42,966 bases of DNA from Lysobacteraceae bacterium (lineage in GTDB: Bacteria; Pseudomonadota; Gammaproteobacteria; Xanthomonadales; Ahniellaceae): positions 1-42,966 of the forward strand of contig JAJTHZ010000019.1 of NCBI GenBank assembly GCA_021299185.1, in the 5' to 3' direction. This document shows, in pieces, positions 27,710 to 37,703 of the stretch. The notes under the pieces are model-generated. The model saw only the letters and a program-made list of their open reading frames with translations. It did not search any database and was not told the origin of the DNA. Every line of letters starts with the position of its first letter. Within the stretch, counting starts at the first letter, position 1. A program made the position numbers and the translations under genes.

Positions 27710-27748
27710 CGCGCGCGCGATCGCACGCCAGCGATTCGCCCGCTGTGC

Positions 27749-28115
27749 GTAGGAGCGCGCTTGCGCGCGACCGCCACCCGATACGTTGCGGCAAGACCCG
27801 GGTGTTGCGGTCGCCCGCAAGCGGGCTCCTACGATTGCCCGGCAGCGGTTCGTATGCGTCACGTAGGAGCGCGCTTGCGCGCGATCGCCACCCCACACGC
27901 CGCGGCAAGACCCGGTTGCTGCGGTCGCCCGCAAGCGGGCTCCTACGATTGCCCGGCAGCGGTTCGTATGCGTCACGTAGGAGCGCGCTTGCGCGCGATC
28001 GCGACCTCGCACGCCGCGGCAAGACCCGGGTGTTTCGGTCGCCCGCAAGCGGGCTCCTACGATTGCCGGGCAGCGATTCGCTGGCGTCTTGTCGATTCGC
28101 GCTGGCGCGCGACTG
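27749..28115. repeat. Tandem REP-like array, about 114-bp period
   Basis: The array fills most of the 482-base gap 27710-28191. Forward units (GTAGGAGCGCGCTTGCGCGC) start at 27749, 27863 and 27977, exactly 114 bases apart. Reverse units of a second flavour (CCCGCAAGCGGGCTCCTAC) lie at 27807-27832, 27921-27946 and 28036-28060. A decayed pair follows at about 28081-28115. The pattern is that of a BIME made of two palindrome types. No gene is seen in the gap. Confidence 0.85.
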
Positions 28116-28191
28116 CCAGCCCAAGCGCCGCGGCAGGGCCCCGGTGTCGCGGTCGCCGCCATCGTCCGGCGGGCGCCGTTAACATGGGGCC

Positions 28192-31613: not shown

Positions 31614-32966
31614 ATGCGCACAATGAACCGTCTTCTTGGCGCGCTGTTGCCTGGGTCCACCGTCCCCGCCGGGGCGCAGGTCGCGCCGAGCGACCTCAAT
31701 CTGGTGCAGGTGGTTCAGGGCCTCACCGCCCCGGTACAGGTGGTCAATGCAGGCGACGGCAGCAACCGTCTGTTCATCGTCGGCCTGCTCGGCCGGGTAT
31801 CGGTCCTTGAGCAGGGTGCGAGCGCGGTCCGCGCTACGCCGTTTTTCGACATCCCGCAGTGCCAGAACACACCGCCGCCGAACCTTTGCGTGCGCACCGA
31901 CTACGAGAATGGCCTGATGGGGATGGCATTCCACCCGAATTTCGAAAGCAACGGGTTCTTCTTCATTCACTACATCGATCGCAACGACGACAGCGTGTTT
32001 GCGCGCGTGCGCGTCTCGCAGACCGATCCGAACGTCGCTGACCTCACGACCCTGACCCCGATCCTGCGCATCGACCACGGCTTCCGGTTCCACCGCGGGG
32101 GCGACCTCGCTTTCGGCCCCGACGGGTTCCTGTACATCCCGATGGGCGACGGCTCAGACCAGGGCGATCCATGCCGCCGCGGGCAGACGCTCACGCCGGC
32201 GCAACTGGCGCAGAACGACCCGCGCAGCGGAGATTGCCCCGCGGATGCCAACTTCGTCGGCCCGCTGGCGAACCCGCGCTCGCGAGCCCTGCTGTCGAAG
32301 GTGATCCGGATCGACGTCAACGGCACCACGCCGGCCGGCAGTAACGAACTTTGCGGCAGCAACCCCGACGGCAGCGCGCCGTACGCGATCCCGCCCGGCA
32401 ATCCCTATGCAGGCAGCAATGGTGTGCCGGGTGCGTGTGACGAGACGTTCTCCTACGGCTGGCGCAATCCGTTCCGGTTCTCGATCGATGCCGAAACCGG
32501 CACCATGTTCCTTGGGGACGTGGGCAACAATTCGCAGGAGGAGATCTCGGCGGACAACATCACCGGAACCGGCAACCGCGACTTCGGCTGGTCCAACTGC
32601 GAAGGCACGCAGGGCGGCCCGAACGGGAACTGCGCCGGATCGGTGCCGCCGGTCTTCCCCTATCCCCGCAACACCGGGCTGGGGTCGTCGGTGACCGGCG
32701 GCTTCGTTTACCGCGGTCCGATCTGGGGCCTGCGCGGGATCTGTTTCTGGAGTGACTTCACCGCCGGCATCATCAGTTTCCTGCGCCGGCCGGTGCCGCC
32801 GTCGACGACCTGGACCAACACCGTCTGGCGCGACACCACCCAGGCCCTGGTGAGTTTCGGCGTCGGCGAGAACGGCGACCTCTATACCGTCGACATCGGA
32901 GGCAACCGCGTCTGGCGCTTCCCGTCCGCCCAGGTCGGGGTGGTGTTCGCCAACGGCTTCGACTAG
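31614..32966 (+). CDS. PQQ-type glucose/sorbosone dehydrogenase, secreted (paralogue 1)
   Basis: This 450-residue protein starts at 31614 after GGGGAAG, giving a short signal peptide (MRTMNRLLGALLPGSTVPAGAQ). The body is a six-bladed propeller of the GSDH family. It has LTAPVQVVNAGDGSNRLFIV, the GLMGMAFHPNFESNGFFFIHY segment (in two parts), GGDLAFGPDGFLYIPMGDGS and ETFSYGWRNPFRFSID, with DVGNNSQEEI later. These enzymes oxidise sugars in the periplasm with pyrroloquinoline quinone, though for many members the substrate is unknown. The last residues are VVFANGFD, a motif shared with the next two secreted proteins. No PQQ synthesis genes are in the window. Confidence 0.88.
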   Translation: MRTMNRLLGALLPGSTVPAGAQVAPSDLNLVQVVQGLTAPVQVVNAGDGSNRLFIVGLLGRVSVLEQGASAVRATPFFDIPQCQNTPPPNLCVRTDYENGLMGMAFHPNFESNGFFFIHYIDRNDDSVFARVRVSQTDPNVADLTTLTPILRIDHGFRFHRGGDLAFGPDGFLYIPMGDGSDQGDPCRRGQTLTPAQLAQNDPRSGDCPADANFVGPLANPRSRALLSKVIRIDVNGTTPAGSNELCGSNPDGSAPYAIPPGNPYAGSNGVPGACDETFSYGWRNPFRFSIDAETGTMFLGDVGNNSQEEISADNITGTGNRDFGWSNCEGTQGGPNGNCAGSVPPVFPYPRNTGLGSSVTGGFVYRGPIWGLRGICFWSDFTAGIISFLRRPVPPSTTWTNTVWRDTTQALVSFGVGENGDLYTVDIGGNRVWRFPSAQVGVVFANGFD

Positions 32967-33016
32967 CAGCAGCGCCCCCCGCGCGGGCGCAGCCCGGCCG
33001 ACGTCCTGCCGCCGGG

Positions 33017-33060
33017 GCGCGACGGGCGTCACGCCCGGGACTGCCCGGACGGCCTATCAT
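33017..33060 (+). promoter_or_regulatory. Promoter region with shared element, dehydrogenase gene 2
   Basis: GCGCGACGGGCGTCACGC (33017-33034) matches the element before the first dehydrogenase gene at 16 of 18 bases. As there, 20 bases separate it from a possible -10, here TATCAT (33055-33060). Confidence 0.45.
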
Positions 33061-33091
33061 CCGGAAGTCCCTGACCCCGCAGAGTGCCGCC

Positions 33092-34558
33092 ATGACCTCG
33101 TGGAAGACTGCCCGCCGTATCGCGACCCTGCTGGGCGCGCTGCTTGCCGCGCCGAACCTGCTTGCCCAGCCGGCCACGCCGCAGTTCACGCCCTTCATCA
33201 CGTCCGGCCTCAGCGGCCCGATCGGCGTGTTCAATGCCGCGGATGGCAGCAACCGGCTGTTCGTGATCCAGCAGGGCGGCCAGGTGCGCGTCTGGCGCGG
33301 CGGTACCCTGCAGACGACGGCCTTCATGGGATTCAACAGCAGTACCACCTGCACCTATCCCGGCAACACGACGCCGACCACCGTGGGCTTCACCAGCGGC
33401 GATGAACGCGGCCTGCTCGGGCTCGCCTTCCACCCGCAATACGAGAGCAACGGCCGCATCTTCGTCAGCATCACCGACAGCGCGGGCGACACCATGATCC
33501 TGCGCTACACCAAGGCCAACCCGGCGCCGCCTGCCTCGGGCGACGACGTGCTGACGTCCGGCGACCTCGCGACCTGCACGGTGATCCTGCGAACCGACCA
33601 GGATTTCGGCAACCACAACGGCGGCAACATCGCCTTCGGGCCCGACGGGTTCCTGTACCTCGGCCTCGGCGACGGCGGCAACGGCGGCGATCCGTGCAAC
33701 CGCGCGCTGACGCTCGACCCGGCGAACCTCGCGGCCAACGACGGCAACGACACGGGCTGTCCGTCGGACACGAACTACACGAGCAATGGTGGTGATCCCA
33801 ATTCGCGCGCGCTGCTGGGCAAGATGCTGCGCCTGGACATCAATGTCACCGAGCCGCTGGCGACGGCGGGCGCCGGGATGTGCGGCGAGCCGCGCGCCGG
33901 CCAGCCGGTGGCCTATGCGATCCCGCCGAACCAGCCTGGCGCCGCCGGCGGCGCATTTCCCGCGGCGTGCGACGAGGTCTGGGCCTACGGCCTGCGCAAC
34001 CCGTGGCGCTTCAGCTTCGATGCGACGACGGGCGACCTCTACGTGGGCGACGTCGGGCAATCGGCGCGCGAGGAAATCAGCCGCACGCCGGCCAATGCCG
34101 GTGGCATCAACTACGGCTGGCGCTGCTTCGAGGGCTCGCAGGCGTTCGCCAACAGCGGGACGGGTTGCACCGCGCCGGTGGTTGCCCGGACCGCGCCGAT
34201 CATCGAGTACCCGCGCAACCTGATCAGCGGCGCGCCGTGCTACTCGGTGACCGGCGGCCATGTCTATCGGGGCAATGTGCAGGGTGTGGAAGGTCGCTAC
34301 TTCTACGCGGACTACTGCACGGGGTCGATCTGGGCCTCCACGGGGGCCGGCGGGACCTGGTCGCAGCCGACGGGCCCGGGCGGCGCGGGAGCGCCGTTCC
34401 AGCAGTTCGGCAACGGCATCAGTACGGGCCAGGGCGTGGCCTCGTTCGGCGAAGACGAGCAGCGCAATCTCTATGTTGCGGTGGGGAACCAGATCCTCCT
34501 GCTCGATGGCCCGCGCGTGCCGGCCGACCTGCTGTTCGGCAACGGTTTCGAGCCCTGA
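33092..34558 (+). CDS. PQQ-type glucose/sorbosone dehydrogenase, secreted (paralogue 2)
   Basis: This 488-residue protein has a signal peptide (MTSWKTARRIATLLGALLAAPNLLAQ). It is clearly a paralogue of the product of 31614-32966, with the same landmarks in the same order: LSGPIGVFNAADGSNRLFVI, GLLGLAFHPQYESNGRIFVS, NIAFGPDGFLYLGLGDGG, EVWAYGLRNPWRFSFD, DVGQSAREEIS. The longer loops contain extra cysteines. The predicted fold is a six-bladed beta propeller that binds PQQ and calcium. The protein ends LLFGNGFEP, again with the F-x-[DN]-G-F motif. The two genes probably arose by tandem duplication. They have similar promoters but are separated by 125 bases and may be transcribed independently. 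Confidence 0.9.
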   Translation: MTSWKTARRIATLLGALLAAPNLLAQPATPQFTPFITSGLSGPIGVFNAADGSNRLFVIQQGGQVRVWRGGTLQTTAFMGFNSSTTCTYPGNTTPTTVGFTSGDERGLLGLAFHPQYESNGRIFVSITDSAGDTMILRYTKANPAPPASGDDVLTSGDLATCTVILRTDQDFGNHNGGNIAFGPDGFLYLGLGDGGNGGDPCNRALTLDPANLAANDGNDTGCPSDTNYTSNGGDPNSRALLGKMLRLDINVTEPLATAGAGMCGEPRAGQPVAYAIPPNQPGAAGGAFPAACDEVWAYGLRNPWRFSFDATTGDLYVGDVGQSAREEISRTPANAGGINYGWRCFEGSQAFANSGTGCTAPVVARTAPIIEYPRNLISGAPCYSVTGGHVYRGNVQGVEGRYFYADYCTGSIWASTGAGGTWSQPTGPGGAGAPFQQFGNGISTGQGVASFGEDEQRNLYVAVGNQILLLDGPRVPADLLFGNGFEP

Positions 34559-34577
34559 TCCCACCGGGCCGGTGTGG

Positions 34578-34596
34578 TCGCCGGTTCCACCGGCGA
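34578..34596. terminator. Hairpin between convergent genes
   Basis: A 7-bp perfect stem (TCGCCGG / CCGGCGA) with a TTCCA loop lies between the stops of the second dehydrogenase gene (34558) and the beta-helix gene (34617). It lacks a T run on either strand. Confidence 0.35.
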
Positions 34597-34616
34597 TCGG
34601 GCCGGCCGGAGCCGGC

Positions 34617-36029
34617 TCAGCGCAGCGCGGGCTCGAAGCCGTCGGCGAACACGAACCCCGCCGTGTCGCGCTCGAACGCGCCGATGTCGATCGGGGGCGA
34701 GGGCGGGCGGGCGATCGGCGCGCCGGCCGGCAGCGCCGCACCCGGTGGCGGCTGGAACAGCGGCGGGAACAGCGGATTGGCAAGGTCGTAGTCGGGCGGC
34801 GTGACGGTGGCGGTGGTGCCGGCATCCAGCAGCGGGCTGCCGGCAGCCGGGGATAAGTCGAGGGCCGCGGCATTGTTGAACCCGGGGCTGCTGCCGGTGA
34901 TGGTGCCGACCAGCACCGCGGGCAGGTTGGCGGGATTGAAGGCGAAGCCGGCCTTCACCCAGTTGTTGCTGCCACGCACGCGCACCACGCCGCCGGGCCA
35001 GTCGGCCTCGACGCCGCGCACCAGGGTCAGTGACGAAGCACCCTCGCGCCAGAACACGTTGTTGTGGAATTCGAGCGCGGCGATGCCGTCGAACAGGCGG
35101 AACACGGTCGGCGTGTCGGCGCCGCCGAGGCGCACCACGGTATTGTTGACGAAGCGGTAGCGGCCGAAGGTCTGTCCCGTGGCGTCGCCGCCGAAGCGCA
35201 GGATGCTGCCGAACGCCGCCGTGTGGACGATGACGTTGCCGACGATGTCCGAGTCCTCGCGCGCGAGTCCCTCGCTCCAGCCCGCCGGCGCGCCGCCGGG
35301 GTCGGGGCCGATCAGTTCCAGTTCGTGGAAGAACGCGCCCTCGAGCCAGTTGTAGTGGATCTCGTTGCGCTCGGCGCGACTCTTGATGAGGTTGCCGCCG
35401 TCGCGCGTGTCGTCGAAGCGGCTGTCGCGCAGGTAGGAATGGCGCAGGCGGAACACCGCGCCGGGGTAGGCGACCTCGTCGGTGGCCATGTAGATGGCGT
35501 GGTTGCCGACGTTGGAGCCGGCGTTACGCACCTCGGAGTACTCGACCGTCAGCGAACCCGTGTCCCGGTCGCCGCCGAGGATGCCGTGGCGCGGGCAGTC
35601 GCGCACCAGCACGTCGCGGATCGTGACCTCATGGGCGTGGTGGTAGATGCAGCGGAAGGTGCCGGTCAGCGTGTCGCCGGTGCCGGTGACCTCGAAGCCC
35701 TCGAAGCGCACATGATTGGACGAGCGGAACTCGATGGTGTTGGTGCCGCCGCGCAGCACCGGCCGCTGGCCGCCGACGCGGATACCACGCACCACGACCG
35801 GGTTGCCGTCTGCGCCGGAATCGCCCGCGCCCATCACGATGCCGGGGCTGCCGACATCGTAGGTCACGCCGCCGGCGACCTCGACGATGTCGCCGGGCCC
35901 GAGGTCGACGGCGTTGAAGGCCGCCTGCAGGGATGCGTACTGGCCGCCCGGGCCGACGGAGTAGGTGGCCGCCGCCGCTGGCATGGCGGCCGTGGCCAAC
36001 AGCAAGAGGGCGGAAGTTTGGGGTTGCAT
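34617..36029 (-). CDS. Secreted right-handed parallel beta-helix protein
   Basis: This 470-residue protein starts at 36029, giving the signal peptide MQPQTSALLLLATAAMPAAAA. The mature protein begins TYSVGPGGQYASLQAAFNAV, the usual opening of pectate-lyase-like parallel beta-helix proteins. Helix turns follow (HVRFEGFEVTGTGD, EVTIRDVLVRDCPRHGILGG, LTVEYSEVRNAG, HNNVFWREG). Such folds bind or cleave polysaccharides, but no lyase residues can be named here. A proline-rich linker (LFPPLFQPPPGAALPAG) precedes the DIGAFERD segment common at the end of these helices, and the protein finishes GFVFADGFEPALR. This is the third consecutive secreted product with the C-terminal F-x-[DN]-G-F-E motif. Confidence 0.82.
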   Translation of the reverse strand: MQPQTSALLLLATAAMPAAAATYSVGPGGQYASLQAAFNAVDLGPGDIVEVAGGVTYDVGSPGIVMGAGDSGADGNPVVVRGIRVGGQRPVLRGGTNTIEFRSSNHVRFEGFEVTGTGDTLTGTFRCIYHHAHEVTIRDVLVRDCPRHGILGGDRDTGSLTVEYSEVRNAGSNVGNHAIYMATDEVAYPGAVFRLRHSYLRDSRFDDTRDGGNLIKSRAERNEIHYNWLEGAFFHELELIGPDPGGAPAGWSEGLAREDSDIVGNVIVHTAAFGSILRFGGDATGQTFGRYRFVNNTVVRLGGADTPTVFRLFDGIAALEFHNNVFWREGASSLTLVRGVEADWPGGVVRVRGSNNWVKAGFAFNPANLPAVLVGTITGSSPGFNNAAALDLSPAAGSPLLDAGTTATVTPPDYDLANPLFPPLFQPPPGAALPAGAPIARPPSPPIDIGAFERDTAGFVFADGFEPALR

Positions 36030-36118: not shown

Positions 36119-37570
36119 ATGCTGGTGATCCCGCTGCATCGCCGCCCCGGCTGGGCCGGGCTGCCCTGGGCCACGCTCGCGCTGGTGCTGGCGAACGTGC
36201 TGGTCTTTTTCGTGCTGCAGGCCGGCGACGCCGCCGCCTGGCGCGACGCCGGGGGCTACTACCGGTCGTCCGGGCTCGCCGCGGTGGAGACGCCCCCGGT
36301 GCTGGCCCACCTGCGCGGCAGTGGCAAGGCGGAACTCGCACGGCAGCTCGAACAGGCACCGGAGGGCCAGCGTTCGGATGTGCTGTTCGCCATCACCCAG
36401 CGCGACCCGCGGTTGGCCGTCGCGATCAAGGAGCGGCGCCTGCTGGCGCCGACGCATCCGGAGTACGGGTACTGGGTGGAGCGTCGGGCGCGGCTGGCGG
36501 AGCGGATCGACGGCCTGTTCAGCCTGCGCCACTCGCTGCGTTACGACGCCCCGCGTCCGGCGGCCCTGCTGACCTCGGCCTTCCTGCACGCCGATGCCGG
36601 GCATCTGTTCGGCAACATGCTGTTCCTGCTGCTGGTCGGGATGCTGGTCGAGGGCGCGCTGGGCGCCGCGCTCTACCTCGGCCTCTACGCGCTGGTGGCG
36701 GTGGCCTCGGCGGCCTTCAGTCTGCTGGTCAACCACGGCACGCCGAGCGGCGTGCTCGGCGCGTCGGGCGCGATCGCGGGCCTGATGGGTGCGTTCTGCG
36801 TGCTGTGGGGCCTGCGCCGCGTGCGGGTGTTCTACTGGGTGCTGGTGGTGTTCGGCCAGGCGCGGGTGGTGGCGCTGTGGCTGCTGCCGTTCTGGCTCGG
36901 CTGGGAACTGTGGCAGTGGGCCGGCGACAGCCGCGGCGTGGCCTTCGATGCGCACGCGGGCGGCCTGATGGCCGGTGCGCTGGCGGCGTTCGGCGTGCGC
37001 GCGGCCGGCTGGCAGCGCGAGGACTACGTGGACCACGAAACCGTCGGCGACCGCGAAGCCGGACTGCGCGAGGCGGCGCGCGGCGCGCTGGGCCGGCTGG
37101 AGTTCCAGCGCGCGCGCGAGGCGGTGGCGCAGTTGCTGCCGCTGGCGACCGAAGACCCCGCGGTGCACGACCTGCGCTATCGCGCGCACCGCGACGTGGC
37201 CGACGACGCCTTCCACGACAGCGCGCGGCGCCTGCTGCTGGCCCCGCGGCTCGGCGCGCGCGGCGCGGCGGGCCACGTTGCGCTGTTCGAGGACTATGTC
37301 GCCGCCAGCCGCCAGCGTCCGCGCTTGTCCGGCGCCGACCTGCTGGCGATCGCGCGCCGCTGGGTCGCGGCCGGCGAGCACGCCGCGGGCGAGCGCCTGC
37401 TGGCGCGCATCGCCGACCGTGCGCCGACGCTCGACGGGCTGGCCGAGGCCTGGTTCGCGCTGTGGCTGGCGCTGCGCGATGCACGCCCGGTCGACGCCGA
37501 GCGCGTGGCAGCCGCGATCCGCGCGCGCTTCCCCGGATCGGCGCAGGCAGCGAAGCTCGCCGCCCAGTGA
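36119..37570 (+). CDS. Rhomboid family intramembrane serine protease with C-terminal helical domain
   Basis: This 483-residue protein starts at 36119 (MLVIPLHRRPGWAGLPWATLALVLANVLVF). A long loop of about 110 residues separates membrane helix 1 from the rest. The motif SAFLHADAGHLFGNMLFLLL carries the conserved His-Asn pair. The catalytic serine is in GVLGASGAIAG (Ser216) and the catalytic histidine in FDAHAGGLMAG (His279). After the membrane core, residues from about 300 to the end form a soluble helical, TPR-like domain (AREAVAQLLPLATEDPAVHDLRYR). Rhomboids cleave membrane proteins within the bilayer. The gene is divergent from the beta-helix gene with about 90 bases between starts. It is not the short rhombosortase form. 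Confidence 0.92.
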   Translation: MLVIPLHRRPGWAGLPWATLALVLANVLVFFVLQAGDAAAWRDAGGYYRSSGLAAVETPPVLAHLRGSGKAELARQLEQAPEGQRSDVLFAITQRDPRLAVAIKERRLLAPTHPEYGYWVERRARLAERIDGLFSLRHSLRYDAPRPAALLTSAFLHADAGHLFGNMLFLLLVGMLVEGALGAALYLGLYALVAVASAAFSLLVNHGTPSGVLGASGAIAGLMGAFCVLWGLRRVRVFYWVLVVFGQARVVALWLLPFWLGWELWQWAGDSRGVAFDAHAGGLMAGALAAFGVRAAGWQREDYVDHETVGDREAGLREAARGALGRLEFQRAREAVAQLLPLATEDPAVHDLRYRAHRDVADDAFHDSARRLLLAPRLGARGAAGHVALFEDYVAASRQRPRLSGADLLAIARRWVAAGEHAAGERLLARIADRAPTLDGLAEAWFALWLALRDARPVDAERVAAAIRARFPGSAQAAKLAAQ

Positions 37571-37628: not shown

Positions 37629-37703
37629 GTAGGGTGCAATGAGCGCAGCGAATTGCACCGCATCGATGGGGCGGTGCAATTCGCTGCGCTCATTGCACCC
37701 TAC
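37629..37703. repeat. Perfect 33-base inverted repeat
   Basis: The arms 37629-37661 and 37671-37703 are exact reverse complements, with a 9-base loop (ATCGATGGG). The left arm begins GTAGGGTGCAATGAGCGC. It lies in the gap between the rhomboid gene and the convergent gene at 37735. It may be a dispersed REP-type element. Transcribed, it would form a very stable hairpin and could act as a terminator for both. Confidence 0.8.

Follow-up and report, generated by a model that had tools for sequence, protein, structure and literature searches.

A short F-x-[DN]-G-F-[DE] tag on predicted exported proteins of a gammaproteobacterial order, and its possible link to a second type II secretion system

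We examined a 42,966-nucleotide stretch of DNA from a Lysobacteraceae bacterium (contig JAJTHZ010000019.1; the whole stretch is referred to as the window), in which three neighbouring genes encode proteins ending in the same short tag, F-x-[DN]-G-F-[DE]. The first gene (31614-32966, forward strand) codes for a protein of the glucose/sorbosone dehydrogenase family (Pfam GSDH, 3.6e-19), with a signal peptide predicted by eye at about 31614-31679 and the tag FANGFD at 32946-32963, followed directly by the stop codon (protein end VVFANGFD). The second gene (33092-34558, forward strand) encodes another GSDH-like protein (Pfam GSDH), a paralogue of the first, with a predicted signal peptide at about 33092-33169, the end of which was judged by eye, and the tag FGNGFE at 34535-34552 before a proline and the stop codon (protein end LLFGNGFEP). 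The third gene (34617-36029, reverse strand) encodes a beta-helix-like protein, for which the library matches to choice-of-anchor Q and Beta_helix were weak and both below the curated cut-offs; on the same strand, its signal peptide was predicted by eye at about 35967-36029, and its tag FADGFE at 34632-34649 is followed by PALR and the stop codon (protein end FVFADGFEPALR). The initial annotation of this DNA had reported the motif shared by the three tails, and it was found at all three ends. The accompanying proposal that different folds share the tail proved true genome-wide, where many folds carry it, but less so locally: because the two GSDH-like propellers, with 38% identity (E 4e-75), are paralogues of each other, the window alone offers two folds, not three.

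The search pattern TTYNNNRAYGGNTTYGA (F-x-[DN]-G-F-[DE]) occurred at 87 places in the 4.84-Mb genome that contains the window (G000; genomes, loci, families and genera are denoted below by G, L, f and g), in comparison to 3 places for the reversed pattern. All 87 places were fetched, translated and judged individually. Seventy-five of them ended 0-6 residues before the stop codon, two more at 17 and 19 residues, and 10 lay elsewhere. No residue separated the motif from the stop codon in 19 of the 75 tails, one residue in 25 and two in 12. The tail consensus was D-x-[LVI]-F-[AGR]-[DN]-G-F-E-(P), and the columns left free by the search pattern were also constrained: the residue preceding F was L, V, I or M in 71 of the 75 tails, D stood at -3 from F in 36 and P followed E in 39, whereas the last residue of the motif was E in 73 tails and D in 2. 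A 19-residue segment above 1.6 within the last 45 residues was detected in one tail of 75, and 53 of the 75 had no K or R within the last 12 residues, in agreement with the earlier description of a tail that lacks both a membrane helix and a basic cluster. Moreover, the two outcomes that the initial annotation had named against itself, a motif as frequent in random C-termini as in secreted proteins or one confined to this gene cluster, did not materialise.

The annotation had also taken the carriers to be secreted, and this was upheld by the enrichment of signal peptides, which were predicted in 46 of the 64 C-terminal carriers whose frame opened in the fetched stretch and in 16 of 72 control open reading frames (ORFs) (Fisher p 7e-9), with both the signal-peptide rule and the greedy picking of the control ORFs from six control stretches being crude. 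The rule misses P0001, P0003, L008 and L057, in which a signal peptide is visible by eye from another start codon. The C-terminal motif was present in none of the 72 control ORFs, and a lipobox-like string in 3 of the 46 carriers with signal peptides. The 75 tagged proteins matched 74 Pfam families (E 0.001), and among the 25 of these 74 families listed, none had more than five members: subtilases (5), FG-GAP (4) and sortilin propellers (4) were followed by GSDH (2), M14 (1) and endonuclease I (1). Among the 25 of 82 NCBIfam families listed at E <=0.1 were choice_anch_Q (9 of the 75 carriers), choice_anch_I (2), choice_anch_D (2), and the rhombosortase-dependent and T9SS-dependent M36 models (2 of 75 each). 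Choice-of-anchor models describe domains that precede different surface signals, and in these and the M36 carriers the tag looks as if it stood in place of other sorting tails. No NCBIfam model covering the tail was seen in the results for the window proteins, the 75 carriers or ten isolated tails; the sole match of the ten tails scanned alone was one SecE model at E 0.2. There is good support for a conserved and modular tag borne by proteins that have signal peptides, and its connection with export or surface placement is likely.

The position of the tag was more variable than expected from the initial annotation, which had described a C-terminal signal. This was correct for the 75 of 87 places near a stop codon, but the tag is not purely C-terminal. 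Three of the 10 non-tail places lay, as judged by eye, directly after a signal peptide (L003, L042 and L038); in L003 (about 3352) and L042 (about 3001), the proteins of which presumably resemble DUF1800, it is not at the protein end. In four others (in L005, L014 and twice in L015) longer chains follow, partly beyond the fetched stretch; in L019 the tag is 37 residues from the stop codon, and L027 and L033 look like chance matches. L344, L350 and L338 likewise have the tag right behind the signal peptide, and L015, L338, L339, L340 and L341 contain tandem copies 11-14 residues apart. Among 30 loci from eight genomes of six other families, we judged 21 to be C-terminal tails and 6 to be non-tails, while one tag followed a signal peptide (L089) and two preceded a further chain (L102 and L106). 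Tails were also seen in families f5, f7 and f9. Since the signal stands at either end of the protein as well as in tandem, a position-tolerant docking motif rather than a cut site is suggested, and a cleaved C-terminal maturation signal is the less likely of the two. In L338 the tag continues into FADGFETGDTSAWT..., and related strings are found later in the same chain in L102 and L106 (LLSENFDSGTP, FEDTLESGAPGWT). We take strings of this kind to be the starts of jelly-roll domains, which are a possible evolutionary source of the tag.

Within the order the tag was abundant but patchy. The pattern counts ranged from 0 to 200 in 398 genomes of the order and from 0 to 16 in 226 genomes belonging to other orders of its class (Gammaproteobacteria); these are raw counts, judged fully in G000 (87 of 87) and G096 (18 of 18) and partly in some others. 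Genomes with 20 or more places were called tag-rich, and most genomes of families f2 and f12 had nearly none. A scan of named genomes for F-A-D-G-F-E followed by a stop codon yielded at least 117 loci, 67 of which were tail-like according to their length and the residue before F. Among the tail-like loci listed, 65 were proteobacterial by name, and two were filed under Actinomycetales and Acidobacteria. They include Dokdonella, Tahibacter, Pseudofulvimonas, Chiayiivirga, Marinicella (among them the cultivable Dokdonella fugitiva, Tahibacter soli, Pseudofulvimonas gallinarii, Chiayiivirga flava and Marinicella litoralis) and many metagenome-assembled genomes (MAGs) of Lysobacterales, and a few of the 65 bear other gammaproteobacterial names (Sedimenticola, Alcanivoracaceae and Oceanospirillales MAGs). 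The presence of tails in several families and named genera agrees with the statement in the annotation that similar endings occur in other Lysobacterales.

The distribution of the tag was compared with that of the type II secretion system (T2SS). Matches to its secretin GspD (TIGR02517) were present in 150 of 151 genomes, and a tree of 40 sequences separated them into two deep clades: GspD-1, the diverged type common in the order, which we take to be the Xps type, and GspD-2, a classical secretin that matched the solved GspD chain at E 3.6e-120, in comparison to 3.1e-41 for GspD-1. The window genome holds both types. As partners of the tag, GspD taken together and its Xps type were uninformative, being present in nearly every genome. 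A GspD-2 profile built from 21 sequences was run on the 398 genomes, with positives defined by hand as E 1e-170 or lower. Partial matches (G113, G127, G454 and G609, three of which begin at the end of a contig) were excluded from the association counts, and the weaker matches in G378 and G402 were counted as negative, although they may be fragments. In the whole order, 78 GspD-2-positive genomes were tag-rich and 46 tag-poor (n=124), as opposed to 9 tag-rich and 261 tag-poor among the negatives (n=270); that is, 78 of the 87 tag-rich genomes carry a second, canonical T2SS (here T2SS-2) beside the common one. In f2 and f12 the positives comprised 22 tag-rich and 6 tag-poor genomes, while none of the 224 negatives was tag-rich, the highest count among them being 10; the tag-rich G609, with its partial match, stands outside these f2 and f12 counts.

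When GspD-2 was used to predict tag-richness in advance, 16 of 16 named new genomes of f12 proved tag-rich (39-200 places), as did two of the three named in f2 (99 and 22 places); the third, G560, had one place. The genomes marked in advance as doubtful (G482, G455 and G593) had 1-2 places and were not tag-rich, and every other new genome of f2 or f12 had 9 or fewer. G019, which is 100% complete and belongs to a tag-rich family, lacked any GspD match, and none of the 7 places examined there (of 9) was tail-like. The initial annotation had suggested that the tail is perhaps read by a secretion system and that genes co-occurring with it should be sought across genomes. GspD-2 is such a gene, and its co-occurrence favours the first suggestion, whereas the reading of the tag by any machine is something that we infer.

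Other candidate partners were rejected. The C13 legumain-type transpeptidase was found in 60 of 151 genomes; it was absent from the tag-rich G002, G003, G008 and others and present in many tag-poor f12 genomes, and so does not track the tag. In the f4 genomes G016, G034 and G004, many very large ORFs (mostly ~1300-2500 aa) showed partial C13-like matches. The exosortase-like protein (PF09721) was found in 62 of 151 genomes and was absent from the tag-rich G012, G109, G149, G002, G008, G015 and G021; its matches were short (~190 aa), weak and patchy over the order, occurring in 20 of 24 genomes in f7. A rhomboid-family gene (Pfam Rhomboid 9e-20) lies in the window at about 36119-37570 on the forward strand, divergent from the adjoining tagged beta-helix gene. 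Of 151 genomes from the order, 17 yielded matches to it below 1e-60, and it does not track the tag either. These three families make up a small control set. A PDZ ligand requiring a free C-terminus was dismissed as well, given the 0-6 residues that follow the motif and the N-terminal and internal copies; an internal, turn-type PDZ ligand would still be compatible with the position of the tag.

A gspC-like ORF adjoins gspD-2 upstream in the 17 loci examined (10 confirmed by Pfam), except for L273, where an alpha/beta-hydrolase-like gene stands between the two and gspE- and gspF-like genes were seen by eye downstream. A helicase-like gene is often found upstream at gspD-2 loci, also as judged by eye. 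The T2SSC domain was present in all 10 GspC proteins scanned, and a PDZ match exceeded the Pfam cut-off in 7 of them, being weaker in L265, L271 and L282. According to a 2025 paper, the selection of T2SS substrates is poorly understood and a universal linear signal is lacking; for other bacteria, it describes the PDZ domain of EpsC as required for the secretion of VesB and that of OutC as contacting a disordered loop of PelI (PMC12369372).

We tentatively favour, with somewhat less than even confidence, the explanation that D-x-[LVI]-F-x-[DN]-G-F-E acts as a short, linear tag for export and is recognised by the canonical T2SS-2 with gspC beside gspD. T2SS-2 is proposed as the reader, perhaps via GspC, because of the co-occurrence and the published roles of GspC PDZ domains. 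The carriers would pass the inner membrane by means of an ordinary signal peptide and, once folded in the periplasm, be recognised through the tag by T2SS-2, which many of these bacteria possess in addition to the Xps-type T2SS that is common in the order. We guess that the reader would be the periplasmic clamp protein GspC, binding through either its PDZ domain or its homology region. A tight turn at the [DN]-G pair may present the two phenylalanines, which is likewise a guess and would account for the C-terminus not having to be free. A bolder form of this proposal, held with more reserve, is that the tag represents the first linear T2SS secretion signal, nine residues long and tolerant of position, which within a single order would direct dozens of unrelated proteins per genome through a dedicated canonical T2SS, probably by binding periplasmic GspC. 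The highest number of pattern places in any one genome, 200, is a raw count without individual verification.

Several observations weigh against recognition by T2SS-2. In f7, tails occur without GspD-2 (10 of 18 places in the 98% complete G096 and 3 of 5 examined in G063). Conversely, the f9 genus g14 has GspD-2 but only one clear tail among 12 places examined (of 33) in G009, G058, G083 and G123, with the 68-codon ORF L305 not counted as a tail, and the PDZ match is above the cut-off also in the GspC of tag-poor G058. Six f2 and f12 genomes with a lower-scoring, canonical-type secretin resembling GspD-2 (G482, G560, G455, G593, G500 and G541) hold 0-2 places; their T2SSs were perhaps acquired separately. 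GspD-2 was not detected in 9 tag-rich genomes, namely G063 and eight of f1, f8 and f11; since the eight assemblies consist of 150-530 contigs each (130 in G063), we guess that the gene could be missing from them through fragmentation. The association of GspD-2 with tag-richness was not significant within f7, f8 or f9 taken alone, and the Fisher tests ignore relatedness, so that the p-values overstate the case, members of a family not being independent. Independent co-losses of the tag and GspD-2 may number only a few (f2, f12 and G019). Canonical T2SSs occur in Gammaproteobacteria, and yet the counts in the 226 genomes of that class from outside the order were low (0-16). The prediction was also partly easy, as a tag-rich member was known beforehand from each of g17, g26 and g54, while among GspD-2 positives in unseen genera G462 and G596 fit and G560, G455 and G593 did not. 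Because the prediction leaned on genera known to be tag-rich, our confidence in export recognition, its bolder form included, was lowered slightly and that in surface retention was raised slightly. The link between the tag and T2SS-2 is a correlation, not proof.

Surface retention is nearly as good an explanation and a serious possibility in its own right. Here, the carriers would be exported by a T2SS in the same way as other substrates and then dock through the tag at a receptor on the outer surface, with T2SS-2 linked to the tag as the exporter. This would account for the choice-of-anchor and anchored-peptidase homologues among the carriers, and the tandem copies would suit avidity. The Vibrio protein VesB offers a parallel: this GlyGly-CTERM protein is reported to be a T2SS effector that is kept on the cell surface (PMC13393428), and it is still secreted when the residues behind its GlyGly motif are removed (PMC12369372). 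Docking of this kind needs a receptor, but none was found, and the distribution of the tag is not matched by any of the three further gene families that were profiled.

A cleaved C-terminal processing signal, at which a dedicated protease or transpeptidase would cut between [DN] and G and join the protein to something else, is considered improbable. Legumain-type enzymes cut after Asn or Asp, and the motif is followed by 0-6 residues and contains the [DN]-G pair, which is fixed in the pattern used. However, the copies behind signal peptides and in mid-chain would make no sense as C-terminal cuts, the tails have no membrane anchor, and C13, the only protease family of this kind profiled, does not track the tag. 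Slightly less probable still is the absence of any sorting role; the tag would then be a stabilising cap or a mobile module at the C-terminus, spread by recombination and perhaps left over from the first strand of a jelly-roll domain. The continuation of the tag in L338 and the related downstream strings in L102 and L106 would fit this. Against it stand the conservation of only some 9 residues across many folds, the signal-peptide enrichment and the patchiness of the tag, which for the most part goes with a secretion system. An effect of chance or composition in a high-GC genome is already refuted by the reversed pattern (3 against 87), by the AT-rich codons that encode the tag in G008 and by the low counts in other orders.

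A tag on dozens of proteins that could be moved, deleted or grafted would make the choice of T2SS substrates directly testable. If the tag were a surface anchor instead, it would still serve for sorting while lacking the membrane helix that the tripartite CTERM tags have, and annotators could use it to predict a large part of the proteins exported by many uncultured Lysobacterales. Among the titles and abstract openings listed by the literature searches, several of which showed only part of their matches, none described the tag, and the papers listed for motif strings were unrelated, which is no proof of absence from the literature.

Two further features were noticed elsewhere in the window. 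At 27718-28157, just upstream of a histidine kinase gene, a unit of ~114 nt is repeated in tandem (reported as three overlapping 212-nt copies); it is REP-like, with strong inverted repeats (CGTAGGAGCGCGCTTGCGCGCGA). At 37632-37700, between two convergent ORFs, lies a perfect inverted repeat whose 30-nt arms are separated by 9 nt.

Among known sorting systems, PEP-CTERM is also patchily distributed, with numerous substrates in each genome that has it. Unlike it, the tag has no helix or basic cluster, and the exosortase-like protein is missing from tag-rich genomes. The C-terminal domains of the type IX secretion system (T9SS) likewise form a sorting element on unrelated secreted proteins and share the M36 model with the tag (2 of 75 carriers), but these domains are 70 or more residues long and the tag only about 9; no T9SS domain was found by NCBIfam in the ten isolated tails, and no search for Por genes was made. 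In the system of GlyGly-CTERM and rhombosortase, too, many exported proteins that are otherwise unrelated end in a short homologous tail; it is linked to the T2SS in Vibrio, and a carrier family is shared (the rhombosortase-dependent M36 model, 2 of 75). In contrast to GlyGly-CTERM, the tag has no Gly-rich motif, helix or basic end and may stand N-terminally or in tandem. No NCBIfam CTERM model matched the ten tails scanned alone, and the window rhomboid, the only rhomboid profiled (the rhombosortase model was not searched), does not track the tag. Finally, the carriers share with T2SS substrates an enrichment of signal peptides and the presence of a T2SS in the genome, order-wide with exceptions. 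As in VesB, PelI and PulA, substrates with Ig or Fn3 recognition regions, the recognition would take place in the periplasm; in those proteins the information is taken to be structural (PMC12369372), whereas the candidate signal here is a linear motif carried by dozens of proteins.

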